A DNA stretch of 21,919 bases from Promethearchaeota archaeon (GTDB lineage: Archaea > Asgardarchaeota > Lokiarchaeia > Sigynarchaeales > SOKP01): the NCBI GenBank assembly GCA_019057975.1, contig JAHLWJ010000037.1, positions 1 through 21,919 of the forward strand. The letters run 5' to 3'. The notes beneath the pieces were generated by a model. The model had not been told where the DNA came from and made no database searches. It worked only from the letters and a program-made list of their open reading frames with translations. Below, one piece after another: positions 5,946 to 21,919 of this stretch. The number at the start of each line of letters is the position of its first letter. Within the stretch, counting starts at the first letter, position 1. The translations under genes and the position numbers were made by a program.

Positions 5946-7226
5946 TTATAATTTTTTGATATAATCTTTAAAATCTCTTAAAACTTGGATGTTGGAATTG
6001 GTTTTTAAAAAAAAAGTTTCATCAGAATTTAAATTTCGAATTGAAAAATTTGTTATTTTTTTATTCTTAAATAATATTACCTCGTATTCTTTATCTCGAA
6101 TTGTATTATCATCATTGAAATAGGTAAATCCCAATAATTGAAATATATCTTTTGATCTTTTCAATAATGTGGCTAACGATTCAATTATTATTTTTCTTTT
6201 TTTTTTTTCATTTCTAAAGTGATCATATACTTCAAGTGTGTTTATCAAATTACTTTTTGCAATAAAAAATTTATATTGATCTAACCCTTTCTGAATCCTA
6301 TATAGTGAATCATTATCAAGTTTCGGATTTCTTTCGATTTTAATTATTTTCGAAATGATTTTAGTCGTATCTTCTGGACTAATTAATTGATGACCTGCCC
6401 AGTCTTCGCTAAATTGAGTTTTAATAAGCCTATCTGAAGGTATTTTTTTATTCCATTTTTCAAATTCATCAGAATTTATTTGTTTAATTCTTTTAAAATA
6501 ATAATTATAATTTGTTAATCCTACAAAAAATGGATTGGAACAAAATATATGACTAATTAAATTTGTCTTTTCTATCATTATGTCCAAAAAACTTATTTTA
6601 GTAGAAGTCGCTGATCCATTAGGCATCAAAGAATACAAGGCATATGTATTTCCCCTTTTTAAAGTTGATTTTTTCTTAGATAACTCCATATTGTACTGAT
6701 AGTTTCCCTTCCCAACCGATTTTCTGACATTATCATTATTTAGCCATTCCTCATAAAAACCTTTAGTAAAAGCTATAGCAGAATCATCATCTGTCTTACC
6801 TTCTGCCCCCACTGTGAAGCTTATAAACTTAGCGACTTGTCTTGCAATATTTATTGATTCGCAAACATTGAATATTACTAATTCTATTTTTTCTCTAAAC
6901 TTAAATAATATATTTGCTAAATTTTCTGTCATATCAATAGAATTAAACTCAAATTCATCATCATCTTCATCAAAGAGGGGTCCTACATAATGAGTTCCAT
7001 GACCAGAAAAATGAATTACCTGAGGATTAATTTTATCAATAATTGCTTCTAAAGATTTTCTTTTAACTGCGAATGCATATTTAAGATTCACTAATTTTCC
7101 AAAATATGTGGTTTTTAATATTTCTCTTATACTTTCAAACTCTTTTTCTGTTCTCACGACTTTCTCATTATTAAAATTTGAACCGAGAAAGAGAATTGTA
7201 ATTACATTTTCAAGATGATTTGACAT
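5946..7226 (-). CDS. CHAT-domain caspase-like protease, 426 aa
   Basis: The first ~200 residues match the CHAT fold: a core strand (ITILFLGSNF), a typical glutamate-containing helix (EKEFESIREIL), then IHFSGHG with the catalytic histidine at 76, and LVIFNVCES with the catalytic cysteine at 122. AFTKGFYEEWL follows as in other CHAT proteins. The region after residue 210 is unlike any domain I know and may recognise a partner or substrate. Unlike the classic TPR-CHAT layout, no TPRs are fused to it. CHAT proteases act in bacterial and archaeal immunity by cleaving partner proteins. A TAGGA-type ribosome binding site lies about eight bases before the ATG at 7226, and a TATA-like TATATATTC lies around 7273-7281. 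It is the last gene of the minus-strand module, 467 bases after the HEPN-like gene. Confidence 0.8.
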   Translation of the reverse strand: MSNHLENVITILFLGSNFNNEKVVRTEKEFESIREILKTTYFGKLVNLKYAFAVKRKSLEAIIDKINPQVIHFSGHGTHYVGPLFDEDDDEFEFNSIDMTENLANILFKFREKIELVIFNVCESINIARQVAKFISFTVGAEGKTDDDSAIAFTKGFYEEWLNNDNVRKSVGKGNYQYNMELSKKKSTLKRGNTYALYSLMPNGSATSTKISFLDIMIEKTNLISHIFCSNPFFVGLTNYNYYFKRIKQINSDEFEKWNKKIPSDRLIKTQFSEDWAGHQLISPEDTTKIISKIIKIERNPKLDNDSLYRIQKGLDQYKFFIAKSNLINTLEVYDHFRNEKKKRKIIIESLATLLKRSKDIFQLLGFTYFNDDNTIRDKEYEVILFKNKKITNFSIRNLNSDETFFLKTNSNIQVLRDFKDYIKKL

Positions 7227-7693
7227 TTAAAATTCCTATTTTTCAGATTCAATATTTAATATTTTATTTTGTGAATATATAATTCTTAGGATAGTAGAAA
7301 ATTCTGATAAATTAGACTATTTGTTTCCCTGAATATTACTTCAGAAAATATCGCGATCATTCATAAGAAATCCCAACATAATTTAGGTAGAGATCTGACA
7401 TAATGAGATATAGTTCGATTAGTAATATAATTCTTTATCTATTTATTCATAGAGTTCTGTTCTATGGAATTTCTATTTTCGCATTAGTTTTTTCTTCAGA
7501 TATATGGCATTATTTTAATCAAAGTCCAGAATTCTTCCTTGAACTCATTTTAATTTACTTCAAATTAGCGTTTTTTAATAGTTACTTGTAATTTCAAATA
7601 ATATTAATCGCAATCACTTTGATAGGAGAGACTTCACTCATTTTCTATCAAAGAAAGATAAATTCCAAAAATAATTAGAATATTTATAGTTCT
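7227..7693. other. Gap between HEPN-like and CHAT genes
   Basis: This 467-base stretch holds the CHAT promoter, a strong hairpin at 7617-7653 and a hydrophobic 62-codon plus-strand frame (7403-7591) that I do not trust as a gene. Nothing else could be recognised. The hairpin makes read-through from the HEPN-like gene uncertain. Confidence 0.5.
7617..7653. promoter_or_regulatory. Hairpin, 13 paired positions, between HEPN-like and CHAT genes
   Basis: CTTTGATAG (7617-7625) pairs perfectly with CTATCAAAG (7645-7653). Four further inner pairs (GAGA with TTTT, using G-U pairs in RNA) leave an 11-base loop. It starts 41 bases after the stop codon of the HEPN-like gene. It could end or process the upstream message, protect its 3' end, or be a protein binding site. 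Confidence 0.6.
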
Positions 7694-9007
7694 TTAAAGT
7701 AGTTCTTGGACAACGACGAAGAGTTGGAACAATAAAGCTTCTAAGATTTGCTTGAATGTAATCGTGTCTAAATATTCTAACTTTAGATCATGAGCTCCAT
7801 GATTTCTCAGAAGATAGACTAACATTGTATTTATAATTTTCTTGTTCTTTGATATTGTGTATGTTGAAGTGATTGAATATAAATTTATGTTCCGCGCAAG
7901 CATAGTACCTATAGATTGATTAATTAATTGAGGATTTCTAAAATATTGGTGTCCAGTGAAAAAGTTCAAGCTTCTTTTGACAGAATTTTCGTGAGAATCA
8001 TCGGTTCTATCAAAATTACCGTTTGATAATCCTTCAATTAAAAATTTAGATTTATATCGAATATAAGTCTCAATATGATTGGTAGGTGGAATTTTCTTTT
8101 CCATGATATGATCTAACAGCAAACAGAAAGAAAGAATGTAGTTTAAGTTTCTCATCTTCGCAAATTCATTATCATATAAATCGAAAGTCTCGATATTGAA
8201 AGCTTGATAATATCTAGTAATAAATAAATAGGTAAAAAAAAGTATTTCATCTTCAAATTCATCATAATTAGATAGGAATTTATTTCTAATCTCTTGATAA
8301 GTAAGGTTTTCTTGGAACTCGTTATTATACCTATCTATAAAAGATGAGAGTTTCTCTATTAAATCGCGTGTTGAGTAATACAAATATTTTCCTCTTCTCT
8401 CATTCATTGAAGCAAATAGAAAAGCAGGAGAATCATGGTAATCATAATTAGGATTCTGCTTTAATCCCCGAATTTTATCATCTTCTAACGCTTTATGCGC
8501 ATAATAAAATGCAAAATCAAAATTCCCTACATCAATGTAATTTGTCACATTAAAAAAGAATGGAGTACCTTTCTTTATATGGAAATTATTGTTTTGTTCC
8601 CATTGATCTACTTCATAGAGTAGGGAATTCCACAAATCAATTTCTTGAAAAGATAAATACACATTATTATAGGTCCCCCAAACAGGCTTAAATGAATTAA
8701 AGAAATGATCTGCTAGGTGATTTGCTGAGATAATATCATTTTGATTTTCTTCAATATCTTTAATTGCGGTAAAAAACACGTTAAAGATCGACTTTAATTC
8801 GTCTTTCACGAGATTAGTTTTAATAATCCTCCTATTATTAACGAATGTTATATAATTCCGTTCTAGCCAATTGGTTAGAGGATTGTCATTGATTTTAATA
8901 ATTCCGTAAGATTGAGCAAAATGATCTCCTTGTGAGGAAATATAGATGTGAAAACCTTCAATATTATTTTCATATTCCAATTTTTCATCAACCATTAGTA
9001 AAATCAT
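7694..9007 (-). CDS. HEPN-like protein (putative RNase), 437 aa
   Basis: Near the C-terminus, residues 401-406 read RNHGAH, the R-x4-H motif of HEPN ribonucleases, followed by a long helix (KQILEALLFQLFVVVQELL) as in that fold. The middle holds KGTPFFFNV, then AFYYAHKALEDD, YHDSPAFLF and a helical segment (LYYSTRDLIEKLSSFIDRY) that recalls HEPN proteins linked to abortive infection. The N-terminal ~90 residues are unassigned. The ATG at 9007 overlaps the end of the 242-residue gene by 20 bases; a second ATG at 8995 would overlap by 8. The tight overlap means the two are co-translated and probably work together. The HEPN assignment rests on the motif and helix pattern, not on a search. Confidence 0.6.
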   Translation of the reverse strand: MILLMVDEKLEYENNIEGFHIYISSQGDHFAQSYGIIKINDNPLTNWLERNYITFVNNRRIIKTNLVKDELKSIFNVFFTAIKDIEENQNDIISANHLADHFFNSFKPVWGTYNNVYLSFQEIDLWNSLLYEVDQWEQNNNFHIKKGTPFFFNVTNYIDVGNFDFAFYYAHKALEDDKIRGLKQNPNYDYHDSPAFLFASMNERRGKYLYYSTRDLIEKLSSFIDRYNNEFQENLTYQEIRNKFLSNYDEFEDEILFFTYLFITRYYQAFNIETFDLYDNEFAKMRNLNYILSFCLLLDHIMEKKIPPTNHIETYIRYKSKFLIEGLSNGNFDRTDDSHENSVKRSLNFFTGHQYFRNPQLINQSIGTMLARNINLYSITSTYTISKNKKIINTMLVYLLRNHGAHDLKLEYLDTITFKQILEALLFQLFVVVQELL

Positions 9008-15190: not shown

Positions 15191-17623
15191 ATGAAATTAA
15201 TTAATACCAGTTTTAATGAATTAATAAAAGATAAAAAGCTTACGTTTTTAGTAGGAGCCGGGTGTTCAGTCAATCCACCCTCTTCCCTTCCAACAGGTAA
15301 TGAAATGATGAATGATATTATAGACTTTTCTTGTAGCGAAAATTTTAAAGAAGATATCAAAAAATTAATCTTTAGAAAAATATTAAGGTTTGAGCAGCTG
15401 GTGGAGATCTTTGTAGAGTTAATTGACAAAAACTTGCATTGCATTGATTTTTTTTCTGAGTGTAAATACCCAAATTCAATCCATTTATTTTTAGCCCATA
15501 TGATTAAAAAAGGTCATTTTGTTATTACGACTAATTTTGATTCTCTTATTGAACAAGCACTGATCGAGATTGGAATTCCAAAAGATCTAATCCTTCCAGT
15601 CATTACAAAGAATGAGATCTTAAAATATAACAATCCTAATGATATCTTCAACGGAGGTAAGTTTTCTGTATATAAAATTCACGGTTCTCCGACAAACATT
15701 ATTAATAACACTTCAAAGTCAGAATTAAGAGAATCCCTTATCGTAACCATCAGATCATTTGTACAAGATAAAAAAGGGTTAAACATCTTTGAATTAGAAC
15801 CATATAAACAAGAAGCCGTTGAAAATTTGCTAAAGAGTCGAACTTTGGTTGTCATGGGTTATTCTGGGAGTGATGATTTTGATATCATTCCTACCTTAGA
15901 GTCTGTTAAAGGAATTAATGAGATTATTTGGATAACTCATGATGACACCCAAGATCTTAAAATTTGGGAACTAGAGGGATTGAATAATGATGATTCCAAG
16001 CCTCAAGAAGTAGATAAGATTTTAAGCAGATTGAAGAATCAAAGTAAAGATATTAAGATCATCAAAGTTATTGGGATGGTTAAAAATCTTATTTCAGAAG
16101 TAGAGCATTTCAAAGCGAATAATGTCTCAGAATTGTTTGAATTAAAACCTATTCAATGGTTACAGACTAAACTCAATACTCCTCCCGAAATTGTAAAAAT
16201 TCAGATGTGTTATTTAACTTTAATCAAATTCAGTTTCTTTAGAAAAGCATTAGAATGCGTTGATAAGATTTTAGATATTGCTATCAAAGAAAACGACTTA
16301 CATTGGCAAAGCGTGGCATATAATAATAGAGGGTGTATTATGGAGATACAAGGAAATTTTAAAGAAGCTTTGACAAATTTTAATAAAGCTTATGATGTTA
16401 TCAAAAAAGCTCCTCCATTATCAAGACATTTAGTAAAAGTGCAATTTAATAGAGGAAAAGCTTTCCATAGTCTAGGACTGATAAATAAAGCTAAAGAAAT
16501 TGAGGAAGAAGCTTTAAAAGTTGCAAAAGAGTTAAATAACAAAGTTTTGATAGCAATTATTTCTAATGGATTAGGTCTGATAAATAGAGAACTTGGTATT
16601 AATGACCTTGCTGAAACATATTTCAGATCCGCTTTATCATTATTTGAGAAAAATAACGATCCAATTGGAAAATCTGTGGTACTTCTAAATTTAGCACTTA
16701 ATTATAGGAATAGAGGAGATTATGAGCAGGAACAAAATTACTTACAAATTGCAACCCAAATTTCAGAAAAATTGAATAGCAGGATTTATCTAAGTGCTTG
16801 CTATACTGAATGGGGACATTCATATTCAAATATTAATGATTGGGAAAAAGCTCAAATTTTTTATAATAAAACTCTTGATCTTGCTGTAGATATGGACGAT
16901 AAAAAACGACTTGCAGATGTCTTGAGATCATTGGGAAACCTACTTTCACGACAAGGAAGATTAAATGACGCTTTAGAAAAATATAATGAATCCTATCAAA
17001 TCAATATTGGGATTGGATCCAGACAAGGAGAGGCAGTGAATCTAGAGGATATGGGATATATCTTTGAACGAAATGGAGATCTATCTAAAGCAATTAAATG
17101 TTATAAGAAGGCTCTTGAAATAAATCAAGAAATTGGAAATTATAAGAAGATCTTGAATAATCACAATAGCCTTGGATTAGCATATCATAAAAAGGAAAAA
17201 TTTGGAGAAGTATTAAAAAATTATGGTATATGTCGGGCTATGATAAAAAATGTTGAAGATCCACTTGTTTTATGTAATTTCTATCTCAATTATTCAAGTC
17301 ACTTGATTGATTTATCTAAAGATGATGAAGCTTCAGAATATTTAAAATTAGCGAAAGAAATTTGTGATAAATTCTCAATAAAATCGAATTTACCACATTT
17401 AAATGCTATATATGGTAAATTACGTGAAAAAAATGGAAATGATGAAAAAGCTATCTTCTACTATAAAAATGCATTGGAAAAAGCAGAAGAACTAAATTAT
17501 AAAAGAGATGAAGCATGTTATCTGAACAAGTTAGGACTTTTATATAAAAAAATAGGGAATTTTGATAAAGCATTAGATCATCATGAAAAAGCACTTTTTG
17601 AATATCTTCAAATCTTGTTATAA
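15191..17623 (+). CDS. SIR2-domain protein with C-terminal TPR array, 810 aa
   Basis: The N-terminus has the NAD-binding pattern of SIR2 proteins: LTFLVGAGCS (residues 17-26), VITTNFDSLIE (111-121) with the catalytic-type asparagine, YKIHGSP (161-167) with the histidine, and VMGYSGSDDFD (221-231). Defence proteins of this type break down NAD+ when triggered, stopping the infected cell. From about residue 310 to the end there are roughly a dozen TPR-like repeats of about 40 residues (for example SVVLLNLALNYRNRGDYEQ, AVNLEDMGYIFERNGDL and ACYLNKLGLLYKKIGNFD), the longer-spaced kind found in signalling sensors. The array probably detects a trigger or forms a higher-order complex. The family role is known; its trigger here is not. 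It is the last gene of the AT-rich block. Confidence 0.85.
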   Translation: MKLINTSFNELIKDKKLTFLVGAGCSVNPPSSLPTGNEMMNDIIDFSCSENFKEDIKKLIFRKILRFEQLVEIFVELIDKNLHCIDFFSECKYPNSIHLFLAHMIKKGHFVITTNFDSLIEQALIEIGIPKDLILPVITKNEILKYNNPNDIFNGGKFSVYKIHGSPTNIINNTSKSELRESLIVTIRSFVQDKKGLNIFELEPYKQEAVENLLKSRTLVVMGYSGSDDFDIIPTLESVKGINEIIWITHDDTQDLKIWELEGLNNDDSKPQEVDKILSRLKNQSKDIKIIKVIGMVKNLISEVEHFKANNVSELFELKPIQWLQTKLNTPPEIVKIQMCYLTLIKFSFFRKALECVDKILDIAIKENDLHWQSVAYNNRGCIMEIQGNFKEALTNFNKAYDVIKKAPPLSRHLVKVQFNRGKAFHSLGLINKAKEIEEEALKVAKELNNKVLIAIISNGLGLINRELGINDLAETYFRSALSLFEKNNDPIGKSVVLLNLALNYRNRGDYEQEQNYLQIATQISEKLNSRIYLSACYTEWGHSYSNINDWEKAQIFYNKTLDLAVDMDDKKRLADVLRSLGNLLSRQGRLNDALEKYNESYQINIGIGSRQGEAVNLEDMGYIFERNGDLSKAIKCYKKALEINQEIGNYKKILNNHNSLGLAYHKKEKFGEVLKNYGICRAMIKNVEDPLVLCNFYLNYSSHLIDLSKDDEASEYLKLAKEICDKFSIKSNLPHLNAIYGKLREKNGNDEKAIFYYKNALEKAEELNYKRDEACYLNKLGLLYKKIGNFDKALDHHEKALFEYLQILL

Positions 17624-17756: not shown

Positions 17757-18278
17757 ATTTATTCCTGTTTGAACTTTTTAGACCAACTAAGCGTATACGC
17801 CCCAAATTATCCCACAACTCAGAAATTTTTAGAAAATTTAAGTTTGAACTTATCACATTTAGAATCTAAAACGGTCTTTGTAGGAGATCAAACAGAGGAA
17901 GAAAGACCTTTGGTATTATCAACAATCCATCGGGCTAAAGGATTAGAATGGCGAATAGTATTTATTCCGATGTTGTGCGAAGATTCCTTCCCTACCAGTA
18001 GAGTAGTTGGCGATACCGAAGCATACGAAGAAGAACGAAGGGTTTTTTACGTCGCAACAACTAGAACTAAGGATCAATTGTATCTTATATCGCCGGCGAT
18101 TATAAATTCCTATAAGGGCCCTCAGACAGTTCGTATATCTCAATTTGTTAATGAATTAAACTCTAAAGTCTATCAAAGATCATCTGTCCTATTTAAGCCA
18201 ATGTCATCAAAAAAAAAGATTTCTAAAGAAAACAAAGCGTCATTTTTTACAACGGCAGATAAACTTGGAAAGAAATAG
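17757..18278 (+). pseudogene. C-terminal remnant of a UvrD/PcrA-like helicase
   Basis: The frame opens after a stop at 17754-17756 and contains helicase motif V (LVLSTIHRAKGLEW) and motif VI (EEERRVFYVATTRTKDQLYL), followed by a poorly conserved lysine-rich tail. Motifs Ia to IV and the Walker A and B sites are absent, so the product cannot be an active helicase. Only a TTG at 17769 could start translation. Codon use is richer in CG than the genes to its left, so the piece belongs to the resident chromosome. The upstream ~400 or more codons have been lost or moved, and this marks the right border of the island. It meets the next gene tail to tail, 29 bases away. Confidence 0.8.
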
Positions 18279-18307: not shown

Positions 18308-19984
18308 TCATTGGTTCTTTGACAAATCATCCAAAAATTTATTAAGGTTATTTAAAACTTTTATTTCTTCGAAATTTATCGGTATACTAGCTCCATTCAA
18401 AATCGGAATTAAAATTGTTTTATAAAAATGTATGAATTCACCATCTTTTGATTTTATGCTAATTATGCCTTCTAAATTATTGGAAAATGGCGTTAATATA
18501 AGCTCCTTCTCGTCCCTCATTGCTACAAAAAAACTATATGGACGCCCAAGCCGCCTTACTTGAATATTCCCTAATTTATTCATAATTGAAAAGATTCTAT
18601 CGTAAATATCCTCTTCCCAAAATGAATAGAAAACAATTTTCTTATCTTCGTTTTTAAAAGCCCACTCTGAAACAAACGAGAGTACTTCTTGAAAGGGTAT
18701 TGGTATGTAAATATAAGCTACATCTTTGGTATTAGAAATAAGATTTGTAATAAGATTAATTAATGTTTCACCTCCATAAAAAACTTCAAGTTCTGAAACT
18801 AATTTTGGATAAACGTCGTCAATGAAAATTCTAAAATCTTTTTTATCTATATTTGCATCGATATATGCTTTTATAAACTTCTTTTCGAAAAATTTAATAA
18901 TAGCTTCCCTGTAAAAGACTAATCCTTTGTCGTCTATAACTTTTCCATTTGTGTTACGTTTTAGATTATGTAAGTCAGAACGTTCTAAGTATTCAATGTA
19001 TTCGTTATTATCGTCACATAATCGCTGGACTAATCTTTGAAAATGTTCATTACTTTCTTGACTCTCACTTTTTTCTTTAGGGGATTCTTCTTGAATACCT
19101 AATTTTTGTTCTATAATTGTCTCTAATTTGAATATCTCCTTCGAGTTTTTTTTATTATCGGAATAATCGTAATCTAAATGTTGATTACAATATTCTAACG
19201 CTTTTTCATACTCTCCTGCGTTGAAATGAATTTGTGCTAAATGTTTTACTGCTCTAAAATACCAAAGAAATGATCCAGGGTCGTAATCGTCTAAAGTTTT
19301 TTTAAAACATTTTGTTGCCTTTTCAATATCACCTTTTCCATAGTAAGCCATACCAAGACAAATCCATCCGTCTGGGTTCATCCCTACTGACTCTATTGAT
19401 TTTTTACAAGCTTCTATAGCATTATCGTATTGTTTTGCTTTAACAAATAGTTCTCCAAGACGATTCCATTTTTTATACTCATTTGGGCTAATTTTCAATA
19501 TTTTTCTTAGAGTATTTATTGTAGCTACAATATCTCTTTCTTTTTCATTCTTTCGGAGTAGAGTTTCAAGAGTTCTTTTTTCTTTATTTGAATATCTTGG
19601 TCCTATTTGGTAAATTCGATGTTCGTTAATATTGTCTTTTGGTTTAGTAAAAAAAGAAACATAATCAACCTTCAATGTTGTATTTTCTGATTCTTCATAA
19701 CTAATCGTATCGTAATATTTTATACCTTCAAATTCGGCCGGATCTTTGTATACTGTTTTAGCTCCTTTAATAGAATAATGAAGAGTTAAATCTTTTCGAG
19801 TTCCTTCCATAACATTCCTAAATTCAACAGGAAATTGATCTAATTCATATTTGCTATAGGTTGAGAGTGCTTTTGGATTACTACTTATGATTTGTGCTAT
19901 CTTTTCAACACTTAGGTCGGGTATATCTTTTTGTGATGTAATATTATATACTTCTTTATGAATTAGAGTTTTGCTAACCATCAT
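18308..19984 (-). CDS. Unknown-domain/TPR/TrmB-like sensor protein, 558 aa
   Basis: Three parts can be seen. Residues 5-131 are an unrecognised domain also found twice in the upstream neighbour, with FPVEFRNV, GTRKDLTLHY, VDYVSFFTK and EHRIYQIGPRYS. Residues 150-295 are four or so TPRs (KKWNRLGELFVKAKQYDNAI, GWICLGMAYYGKGDIEKA, AQIHFNAGEYEKALEY). Residues 400-530 resemble the PLD-like ligand-sensing fold of TrmB/FilR1 regulators (GGETLINLITNLI, DKKIVFYSFWEE, ELILTPFSNNLEGIIS). No DNA-binding helix-turn-helix is evident. ATG at 19984 and 19981 are adjacent, and a TATA-like ATTTATTTTA (20001-20010, minus) lies 22-25 bases upstream. The neighbouring gene ends 37 bases upstream on the same strand. 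A signalling role is inferred; no function is known. Confidence 0.65.
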   Translation of the reverse strand: MMVSKTLIHKEVYNITSQKDIPDLSVEKIAQIISSNPKALSTYSKYELDQFPVEFRNVMEGTRKDLTLHYSIKGAKTVYKDPAEFEGIKYYDTISYEESENTTLKVDYVSFFTKPKDNINEHRIYQIGPRYSNKEKRTLETLLRKNEKERDIVATINTLRKILKISPNEYKKWNRLGELFVKAKQYDNAIEACKKSIESVGMNPDGWICLGMAYYGKGDIEKATKCFKKTLDDYDPGSFLWYFRAVKHLAQIHFNAGEYEKALEYCNQHLDYDYSDNKKNSKEIFKLETIIEQKLGIQEESPKEKSESQESNEHFQRLVQRLCDDNNEYIEYLERSDLHNLKRNTNGKVIDDKGLVFYREAIIKFFEKKFIKAYIDANIDKKDFRIFIDDVYPKLVSELEVFYGGETLINLITNLISNTKDVAYIYIPIPFQEVLSFVSEWAFKNEDKKIVFYSFWEEDIYDRIFSIMNKLGNIQVRRLGRPYSFFVAMRDEKELILTPFSNNLEGIISIKSKDGEFIHFYKTILIPILNGASIPINFEEIKVLNNLNKFLDDLSKNQ

Positions 19985-20000
19985 GTTTCACTTTTTATAA

Positions 20001-20010
20001 TTTATTTTAT
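20001..20010 (-). promoter_or_regulatory. TATA-like box for the 558-residue protein
   Basis: TAAAATAAAT on the minus strand is centred 22-25 bases before the adjacent ATGs at 19984 and 19981, so a leaderless message of its own is possible although the gene follows closely behind another. Confidence 0.4.
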
Positions 20011-20021
20011 GCAATCATCTT

Positions 20022-21479
20022 TTAATGTTTTGATTTATTGATTTTTTCGTTAATGTCAATTAAATGTTGTTTGACCTCCACATCTGAAGAATCCAAATCC
20101 AAAGCTTTTTGATAGGCTTCTTTAGCTTTTTCGTATTCATTATTATACTCGTAAGCTAATCCTAAATTATCCCATGTAATCGAATCTTCAGAATCTATTT
20201 CGAGAGCCTTTTGATATAACGATATGGCTTCTTTGTAGTTAGACTTGCACACAAGAGCCAATCCTAAATTATTCATAGTATCAGTATCTTCAGGTTCGAG
20301 TTCTAAAACCTTAGTATAATATTCTATTGCTTTATCGTAGTTCTCAATATCATAATTCAATTCACCTAAACCAAATAAATCGTCAATAGAAAACGCCTCT
20401 GAACCATATCTCCTTCCAATTTGATAAATTCGGAATTCTACTCTTCCATCTTTTTCTTTTGTAAAGAAAGAAACTATATCCACTTTAGTAATTCTATCCA
20501 GATACTTAAAATCTTTAAACTCACCGTTTTCAATGATTGGTACTTTATCCGCATAATGATAAATGATATCTTTTCTAGTTTTTTCATCAACATTTCTAAA
20601 ATTAACATTATGTGTAGCTTCTTCGTAATCCAGATGTCGGGGAATAAATTCTAACATAAATAGAATACTTCCGATTTCTTCGATATCAAAATCATGAATT
20701 GTTGTTCCTTTAGTATATTCTCGTTTATGCAATAATGATTTGGTTTTAGATACTTCTGCTTTTGACTCTTTTAAGAATTCAAACTTTTTTAAATCAACTT
20801 TAAAAGGATTAACATCAATATTTAATTCTTTATTAAAGAATCTTCTTGTTTTTATTTGCTTGCTTACAGCATCTTCAATTTTTCTTTGAATCTTCCAGTA
20901 TTTTTTTTCCGGACCCAATTTATGATAAATTTCTCGTAAGATATTTAGATAAAACTCCTGTTTTTTTGGATGAAATGACTTAAATTCACCACTTTTAGTA
21001 ATTCCTTCAAGTAGAGCTCTTTTTTCTTCAAGAGATTTATCACGAATATCATCTCTAAATCCCCTTATATCTTCAACACTTTTAGAATACCTTCCCCCAA
21101 TCTGATAAATTTTATGCTCAGATATAGAATTCTTGATTTTAGTAAAAAAAGATATTATATCCACTCTCTCAACATCATCATTGATAAAATACCCTTTTAT
21201 TTTGTCAGAATCGAGATCACGTTCTATAATTGTTGTTTTATATAAGAATGTAATATCAAGCCTAGTTGAATTTATAATACTCTTGAAATTAACTGGAAAT
21301 TTCTTAATTTCAAGTGGAATCTCTTCAAATAATGTGTAATTCCCATAATCCCGTTGACTACTGATTCCTTTTTCTATGGTGTAAAGAATATGGCCAATAT
21401 CTTCTGGTTTAAACTTAGGAATAGTGTTTTCTTCTACCTTCTTATATTCATATTTATATAATAGGGTTTTATTTACCAT
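20022..21479 (-). CDS. Protein with two copies of an unknown domain plus TPRs, 485 aa
   Basis: Residues 4-132 and 246-359 are two copies of the domain also present at the start of the 558-residue protein. Shared landmarks are KTLLYKYEY or KSLLHKREY, PEDIGHIL or EEIGSIL, NSTRLDITFLY or EKTRKDIIYHY, VDIISFFTK or VDIVSFFTK, and KIYQIGGRYS or RIYQIGRRYG. A charged helical linker lies between them (about 145-240). Residues 367-480 form three regular 34-residue TPRs (YDKAIEYYTKVLELEPED, YKEAISLYQKALEIDSED, YEKAKEAYQKALDLDSSD). No catalytic motif is seen. A TATA-like stretch (21497-21508, minus) is 23 bases before the ATG, so the message is probably leaderless, though the gene is only 63 bases behind rad50. 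Confidence 0.7.
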   Translation of the reverse strand: MVNKTLLYKYEYKKVEENTIPKFKPEDIGHILYTIEKGISSQRDYGNYTLFEEIPLEIKKFPVNFKSIINSTRLDITFLYKTTIIERDLDSDKIKGYFINDDVERVDIISFFTKIKNSISEHKIYQIGGRYSKSVEDIRGFRDDIRDKSLEEKRALLEGITKSGEFKSFHPKKQEFYLNILREIYHKLGPEKKYWKIQRKIEDAVSKQIKTRRFFNKELNIDVNPFKVDLKKFEFLKESKAEVSKTKSLLHKREYTKGTTIHDFDIEEIGSILFMLEFIPRHLDYEEATHNVNFRNVDEKTRKDIIYHYADKVPIIENGEFKDFKYLDRITKVDIVSFFTKEKDGRVEFRIYQIGRRYGSEAFSIDDLFGLGELNYDIENYDKAIEYYTKVLELEPEDTDTMNNLGLALVCKSNYKEAISLYQKALEIDSEDSITWDNLGLAYEYNNEYEKAKEAYQKALDLDSSDVEVKQHLIDINEKINKSKH

Positions 21480-21542: not shown

Positions 21543-21919
21543 CTACATTGACTCTCTCTCGACTTTTGTAAGGTGATTGCTCTTTTTAAACGTGTATATA
21601 TCGGTTACAAACGAATCTAGAGCCCTTTCGTGAGAAATAATAATCATCTGAGAAGTATTAAGCGAGTTAAAAATCTCTTGCATACGATTAACTTGTTGCT
21701 GACTAAAACCATCGGTAGGCTCGTCTAAAATTAATAAATCCTTAGTTTTGACGTCTTGATATCTTTCGTTAATGATTTTAGTTAATCCTAACCTGTAAGC
21801 TAACGATATTGCGCTCTTCTCTCCTCCTGATAGGTCGCGAAAAGGAGAATCGTAACCGTTAACGTTAATTATTGGCTGAAAATCATCGGGGCGAATCTCA
21901 ACTTCTATATTTCCACTCT
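21543..21919 (-). CDS. rad50: Rad50-type ATPase, C-terminal end (5' cut by window edge)
   Basis: The last 125 residues show the ABC signature motif (DLSGGEKSAISLAYRLGL), Walker B with the catalytic glutamate (LLILDEPTDGFS) and the H-loop histidine (MIIISHERALDSF), in the order found in the C-terminal lobe of Rad50. Rad50 works with Mre11 in double-strand break repair, and in archaea often with HerA and NurA. Codons such as CGC, GTC and ACG are common, as in the left-hand host genes. SbcC or SMC proteins are less likely given the DGFS and SHER wording. The rest of the gene lies outside the window. Confidence 0.85.
   Translation of the reverse strand, partial: SGNIEVEIRPDDFQPIINVNGYDSPFRDLSGGEKSAISLAYRLGLTKIINERYQDVKTKDLLILDEPTDGFSQQQVNRMQEIFNSLNTSQMIIISHERALDSFVTDIYTFKKSNHLTKVERESM

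Follow-up and report, generated by a model that had tools for sequence, protein, structure and literature searches.

The 21,919-nucleotide (nt) stretch of DNA analyzed here (hereafter the window; contig JAHLWJ010000037.1 of assembly GCA_019057975.1, from a Promethearchaeota archaeon of the Lokiarchaeia) encodes two neighbouring proteins of 558 and 485 residues, in which a domain of ~125 residues without a name, designated here as DOM, occurs three times in all. The machines that it accompanies are known. Six of the seven complete DOM loci lie within Rad50/Mre11 operons, for which three different settings can be distinguished, and because most readable DOM neighbourhoods are repair or defence gene clusters, DOM is probably a so far overlooked accessory component of the machines that cut DNA in repair or defence. 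More specifically, we tentatively favour the reading (probability about 0.45) that DOM serves the Mre11-Rad50/HerA-NurA machines, with which Lokiarchaeia process DNA ends, as an optional accessory domain that changes fast. Mre11-Rad50 has dedicated regulators in eukaryotes, of which Asgard archaea are close archaeal kin, and a candidate accessory subunit in repair- and defence-type Asgard operons would offer a handle on the regulation or defence use of end-resection machines.

The three copies are homologous. Their pairwise local alignment scores (182, 185 and 164) lie 21 to 27 standard deviations above those of shuffled sequences (2000 shuffles per pair; means 32-35, standard deviations 5.7-6.4, highest scores 75, 61 and 75), and 34 columns of the three-row alignment are invariant. 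The three-copy profile delimits DOM to residues 4-133 of the 558-residue protein and 3-133 and 246-360 of the 485-residue protein. These limits agree with a preliminary description of this DNA, which had recognized the threefold domain and placed both open reading frames exactly where they are found. Its statement that DOM belongs to no named family holds as well: profile searches gave chance-level E-values only in Pfam (best 0.12; 0.015 for one of 29 members), NCBIfam (0.014; 16 bits, cut-off 105) and PHROGs (0.031). The predicted structure of DOM consists mainly of antiparallel strands and one helix; PsbP/Mog1/START-like folds were considered as candidate matches. Compared with its relative in locus L002, the gene of the 485-residue protein has a ratio of nonsynonymous to synonymous substitution rates of ~0.23 and is thus under purifying selection. 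The two proteins are 66.8% identical, whereas the flanking genes are much closer (95.2% for the 124 residues of the window's Rad50 end, aligned with residues 570-693 of L002 Rad50; 86.1% for the UvrD remnant, aligned with residues 552-717 of L002 UvrD).

Searches of protein databases with DOM returned 19, 19 and 30 matches, and 69 proteins with a match and 74 near-full-length copies were found. A scan of genome contigs with one peptide pattern retrieved two loci, both labelled Lokiarchaeia or Lokiarchaeota. The whole-genome search covered 227 genomes of the phylum, including 83 of the class of genome G002; strong matches occurred in six genomes, all of this class (seven of the 83 at an E-value of 0.001, with G041 rejected). 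At an E-value of 0.01, nine genomes of the phylum matched, three of them weakly. The weak matches in G041 (3.6e-4), G177 (9.1e-4) and G034 (0.008) are not counted among the six; the G041 and G177 frames are other proteins when read by eye. G011 and G052, with E-values of ~0.01 in a search in which G041 reached 0.004, were excluded too. A mobile origin was also rejected: two profiles (19 and 33 pattern stretches) detected no DOM relative in viral contigs, and neither did a search of phage and plasmid records that used one standalone protein as a query (E-value 0.001).

DOM occurs in the architectures DOM-DOM-TPR (TPR, tetratricopeptide repeats), DOM-TPR-sensor, DOM-sensor-DOM (P0032, sensor recognized by eye), DOM-TPR (L001) and TPR-DOM (L020), and as standalone proteins of 138 (L016) and 129 residues (L017). 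The constant part is therefore DOM itself rather than TPR. That DOM always precedes TPRs, as initially proposed, applies to the window and not to the family, given the standalone proteins and the C-terminal DOM of L020. In the tree, one clade (support 98/91; 23 rows, with single-copy proteins among them) holds most first copies and another (97/90; 17 rows) most second copies; both clades contain other sequences as well, no position could be assigned to the second copy of L018, and the small number of columns limits resolution. This separation implies that the duplication of DOM is old, as had been suspected. A recent tandem duplication can be ruled out, since the copies in the window are only ~40% identical and belong to different clades.

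The first setting is the canonical nurA-herA-mre11-rad50-DOM series found in L002 and L017, to which the rad50 end in the window may be added; in all three cases, the DOM gene is adjacent to rad50, downstream and on the same strand. The preliminary description had missed this rad50 end and its implications. In L002, NurA (Pfam E-value 1.4e-6, 28.4 bits, cut-off 21), HerA (7.7e-21), Mre11 (metallophosphatase, 1.8e-16) and Rad50 are followed after 39 nt by a DOM-DOM-TPR gene and then by a convergent UvrD helicase gene. These four genes recur in L017, where a standalone DOM gene lies 19 nt past rad50. The second setting is an operon of G038 with the order Argonaute-NurA-HerA-Mre11/Rad50 fusion, two genes of unknown function (325 and 845) and DOM; Argonaute was identified by Piwi (3.9e-10, over the cut-off) and by the PADLOC pAgo model (3.9e-26), NurA and HerA by BLAST. 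In this genome, the Argonaute gene (L061, 1402-4849) directly precedes a second, fusion-type NurA-HerA-Mre11/Rad50 operon, and a canonical operon without DOM is present as well (L049). In the third setting (G033 and G007), NurA, HerA, Mre11 and Rad50 genes (Pfam) precede a set of four genes, the last two being JetC- and JetD-like in this order. After the jetD-like gene comes either a DOM-DOM-TPR gene directly (G033) or, behind one further gene, a TPR-DOM gene (G007). In L018, 9 nt separate the jetD-like gene from the DOM gene, which overlaps the next gene by 4 nt; together with the gaps in L017 and L002 this is operon-like spacing. Different DOM clades are present at different loci, so that this is not one locus seen repeatedly. 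The preliminary description had named homologues beside repair or defence genes as support for its proposal, and the six loci provide just that.

The JetC-like genes of G033 and G007 were recognized by PADLOC (2.1e-12 and 6e-22; for G033 the mad3 model fits better, 2.2e-16), as were the JetD-like genes (4e-16 and 3.5e-17; in G033 also Pfam JetD_C, 24.5 bits, cut-off 22). The presumed JetA and JetB positions fit in size and order, with no profile match. These loci thus resemble Wadjet (JetABCD) in having JetC- and JetD-like genes in jet order, and differ from it in that JetA and JetB have no profile match and in the presence of NurA, HerA, Mre11 and Rad50. Each forms one strand-consistent series (L060 and L018 in G033, L059 and L020 in G007), by appearance an operon in which end-resection and Wadjet-like genes have merged. 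G039 (L064, L055) and G014 (L065, L057) carry comparable though diverged series that lack DOM, with an Mre11-like gene recognized by eye. A Piwi-like gene of G033 falls narrowly short of the Pfam cut-off (28.8 versus 28.9 bits); the GHKL label of a 472-residue neighbour, based on motifs seen by eye, was dropped, the only match being gyrase B at an E-value of 0.13. Among the matches listed in literature searches of titles and abstract openings (preprints and most subscription papers not covered), there was no account of DOM or of a NurA-HerA-Mre11-Rad50-Wadjet operon. The available part of a review of SMC-based immunity does not mention HerA, and neither Wadjet nor Mre11 occurs in the available main-text portions of two archaeal defence papers.

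The association, strong when seen from DOM, is weak when seen from rad50: the machines do not need DOM. Mre11 of the canonical operon was found in 21 of the 83 genomes of the class, and all 21 loci were inspected; DOM follows rad50 in only two of the 19 readable ones (L002 and L017). It is thus not a constant member of this operon in the class and is dispensable there; a convergent uvrD gene is nearby in seven of the 19. JetD homologues are present in five of the 83 genomes (five of 227 in the phylum), and three of these five loci have no DOM. Further points weigh against an accessory role. The complete locus L001 has no Rad50 nearby; a SMODS-like nucleotidyltransferase gene (7025-7921; 18.8 bits, cut-off 26.5) lies there 70 nt upstream of the DOM-TPR gene. 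The partial copies on contig 71 of G038 and contig 127 of G002, excluded from the count of seven loci, were not seen beside Rad50. In the window itself, the gaps of 63 nt (rad50 to the gene of the 485-residue protein) and 37 nt (to the second DOM gene) make co-transcription only putative.

If DOM is an accessory domain, it could dock on a component common to these operons (Mre11-Rad50 or HerA-NurA). The attached TPRs, joined in the 558-residue protein by the TrmB-like ligand pocket, might then recruit partners or relay a signal by which the nuclease machine is activated or shut down. Such a role would be common to repair-type and defence-type operons. We can also imagine, with considerable reservation, that Lokiarchaeia added DOM to Mre11-Rad50/HerA-NurA as a lineage-specific third component and reused it in merged operons, where Argonaute and end-resection genes would join a Wadjet-like SMC system in one defence machine. 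DOM may be compared in this respect to Nbs1, by its position in the argument only, as a lineage-specific partner of Mre11-Rad50. Nbs1 is defined by FHA and BRCT domains, whereas DOM proteins have no Pfam match to either and their complex is putative. In eukaryotes, the Mre11-Rad50 complex has Nbs1 as its third subunit, a lineage-specific regulatory partner (PMC10586767). The linkage of nurA, herA, mre11 and rad50 is known from hyperthermophilic archaea (PMC2288612; see also Constantinesco 2004, as cited in PMC5365140). L002 and L017 match this known cluster gene for gene, and in gene order, ahead of DOM; what sets them apart is the extra DOM gene after rad50.

The main alternative regards DOM genes as cargo with an independent role in defence or signalling, which repeatedly settled behind rad50 and in defence operons, i.e. 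in a variable slot or defence island, without forming a common complex. Indeed, the position after rad50 is variable: by eye, it is occupied by an exonuclease-like protein of 311 residues in G064 (L039, 6309-7244) and by an ATPase-like protein of 644 residues, 5 nt after rad50, in G042 (L053, 5920-7854), and in G001 no gene lies between rad50 and uvrD. Furthermore, a SIR2-TPR gene, whose product is likely a defence protein, lies beyond uvrD in the window, and DOM is paired with the SMODS-like gene in L001. The fast divergence of the 485-residue protein relative to Rad50 and UvrD fits cargo and accessory domain alike. However, in G038, G033 and G007 the DOM genes are inside, or tightly spaced in, diverged and separate Rad50/Mre11 operons, which one slot does not explain, and we regard cargo as rather unlikely.

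DOM could also be an enzyme, e.g. a nuclease or nucleotide-processing domain, acting on DNA from the neighbouring machine. Polar residues are among its best conserved (weighted frequencies over 70 unique copies: R63 0.94, D65 0.99, D107 0.92, K116 0.93, E121 0.90, Y125 0.94), but neither Pfam nor fold comparisons matched it to an enzyme, and this explanation appears improbable. Even less is to be said for the 558-residue protein being a TrmB-type transcription regulator with DOM as its DNA-binding part. TrmB/FilR1 regulators possess an N-terminal helix-turn-helix DNA-binding domain. In its C-terminal part, the 558-residue protein does have the fold of the TrmB sugar-binding domain, and the TrmB/FilR1-like sensor proposed earlier was right as a fold; yet the sensor is joined here to DOM and TPRs, and the Pfam scan of the whole protein gave only repeat families and weak unrelated ones (best 25 of 27), with no helix-turn-helix. 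Besides, the strand-rich model of DOM speaks against a DNA-binding part of this type, and the sensor is absent from most DOM proteins. The catalytic motif of phospholipase D (PLD) enzymes, HxKx4D, is absent as well: HxK was not found anywhere in the 558-residue protein, and HxKx4D strings in two of its 17 relatives (residues 179 and 191) lie outside the sensor.

Features of the window discussed in the text (positions in nt)
Feature	Position	Strand	Evidence
558-residue protein: DOM, TPRs, TrmB-like sensor	18308..19984	-	Open reading frame list, profile
DOM copy A1, residues 4-132 of 558-residue protein	19589..19975	-	Profile, alignment, tree; modelled
TPR region, residues ~149-275 of 558-residue protein	19160..19540	-	Pfam TPR_1 9.7e-17; PDB TPR matches
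TrmB-like (PLD-superfamily) sensor fold without HxK motif, residues 398-536 of 558-residue protein	18377..18793	-	
485-residue protein: DOM, linker, DOM, TPRs	20022..21479	-	Open reading frame list, Pfam, profile
DOM copy B1, residues 3-132 of 485-residue protein	21084..21473	-	Profile, alignment, tree
DOM copy B2, residues 246-359 of 485-residue protein	20403..20744	-	Profile, alignment, tree
TPR region, residues ~365-475 of 485-residue protein	20055..20387	-	Pfam TPR_1 2.4e-24
rad50 3' end, cut by window edge	21543..21917	-	SbcC_Walker_B 3.0e-5
C-terminal UvrD-type helicase remnant, convergent with DOM genes	17769..18278	+	Pfam UvrD_C 1.3e-21
SIR2-like domain, then TPRs	15191-17623		SIR2_2 2.9e-12
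CHAT-like protease domain	5946-7226		22.5 bits, just below Pfam cut-off of 24

Note that the UvrD frame of the window has several stops immediately upstream of the remnant, with the SIR2-TPR gene farther out. Insertion, rearrangement or an assembly join are all possible origins of the remnant; no obvious flanking repeat is present.
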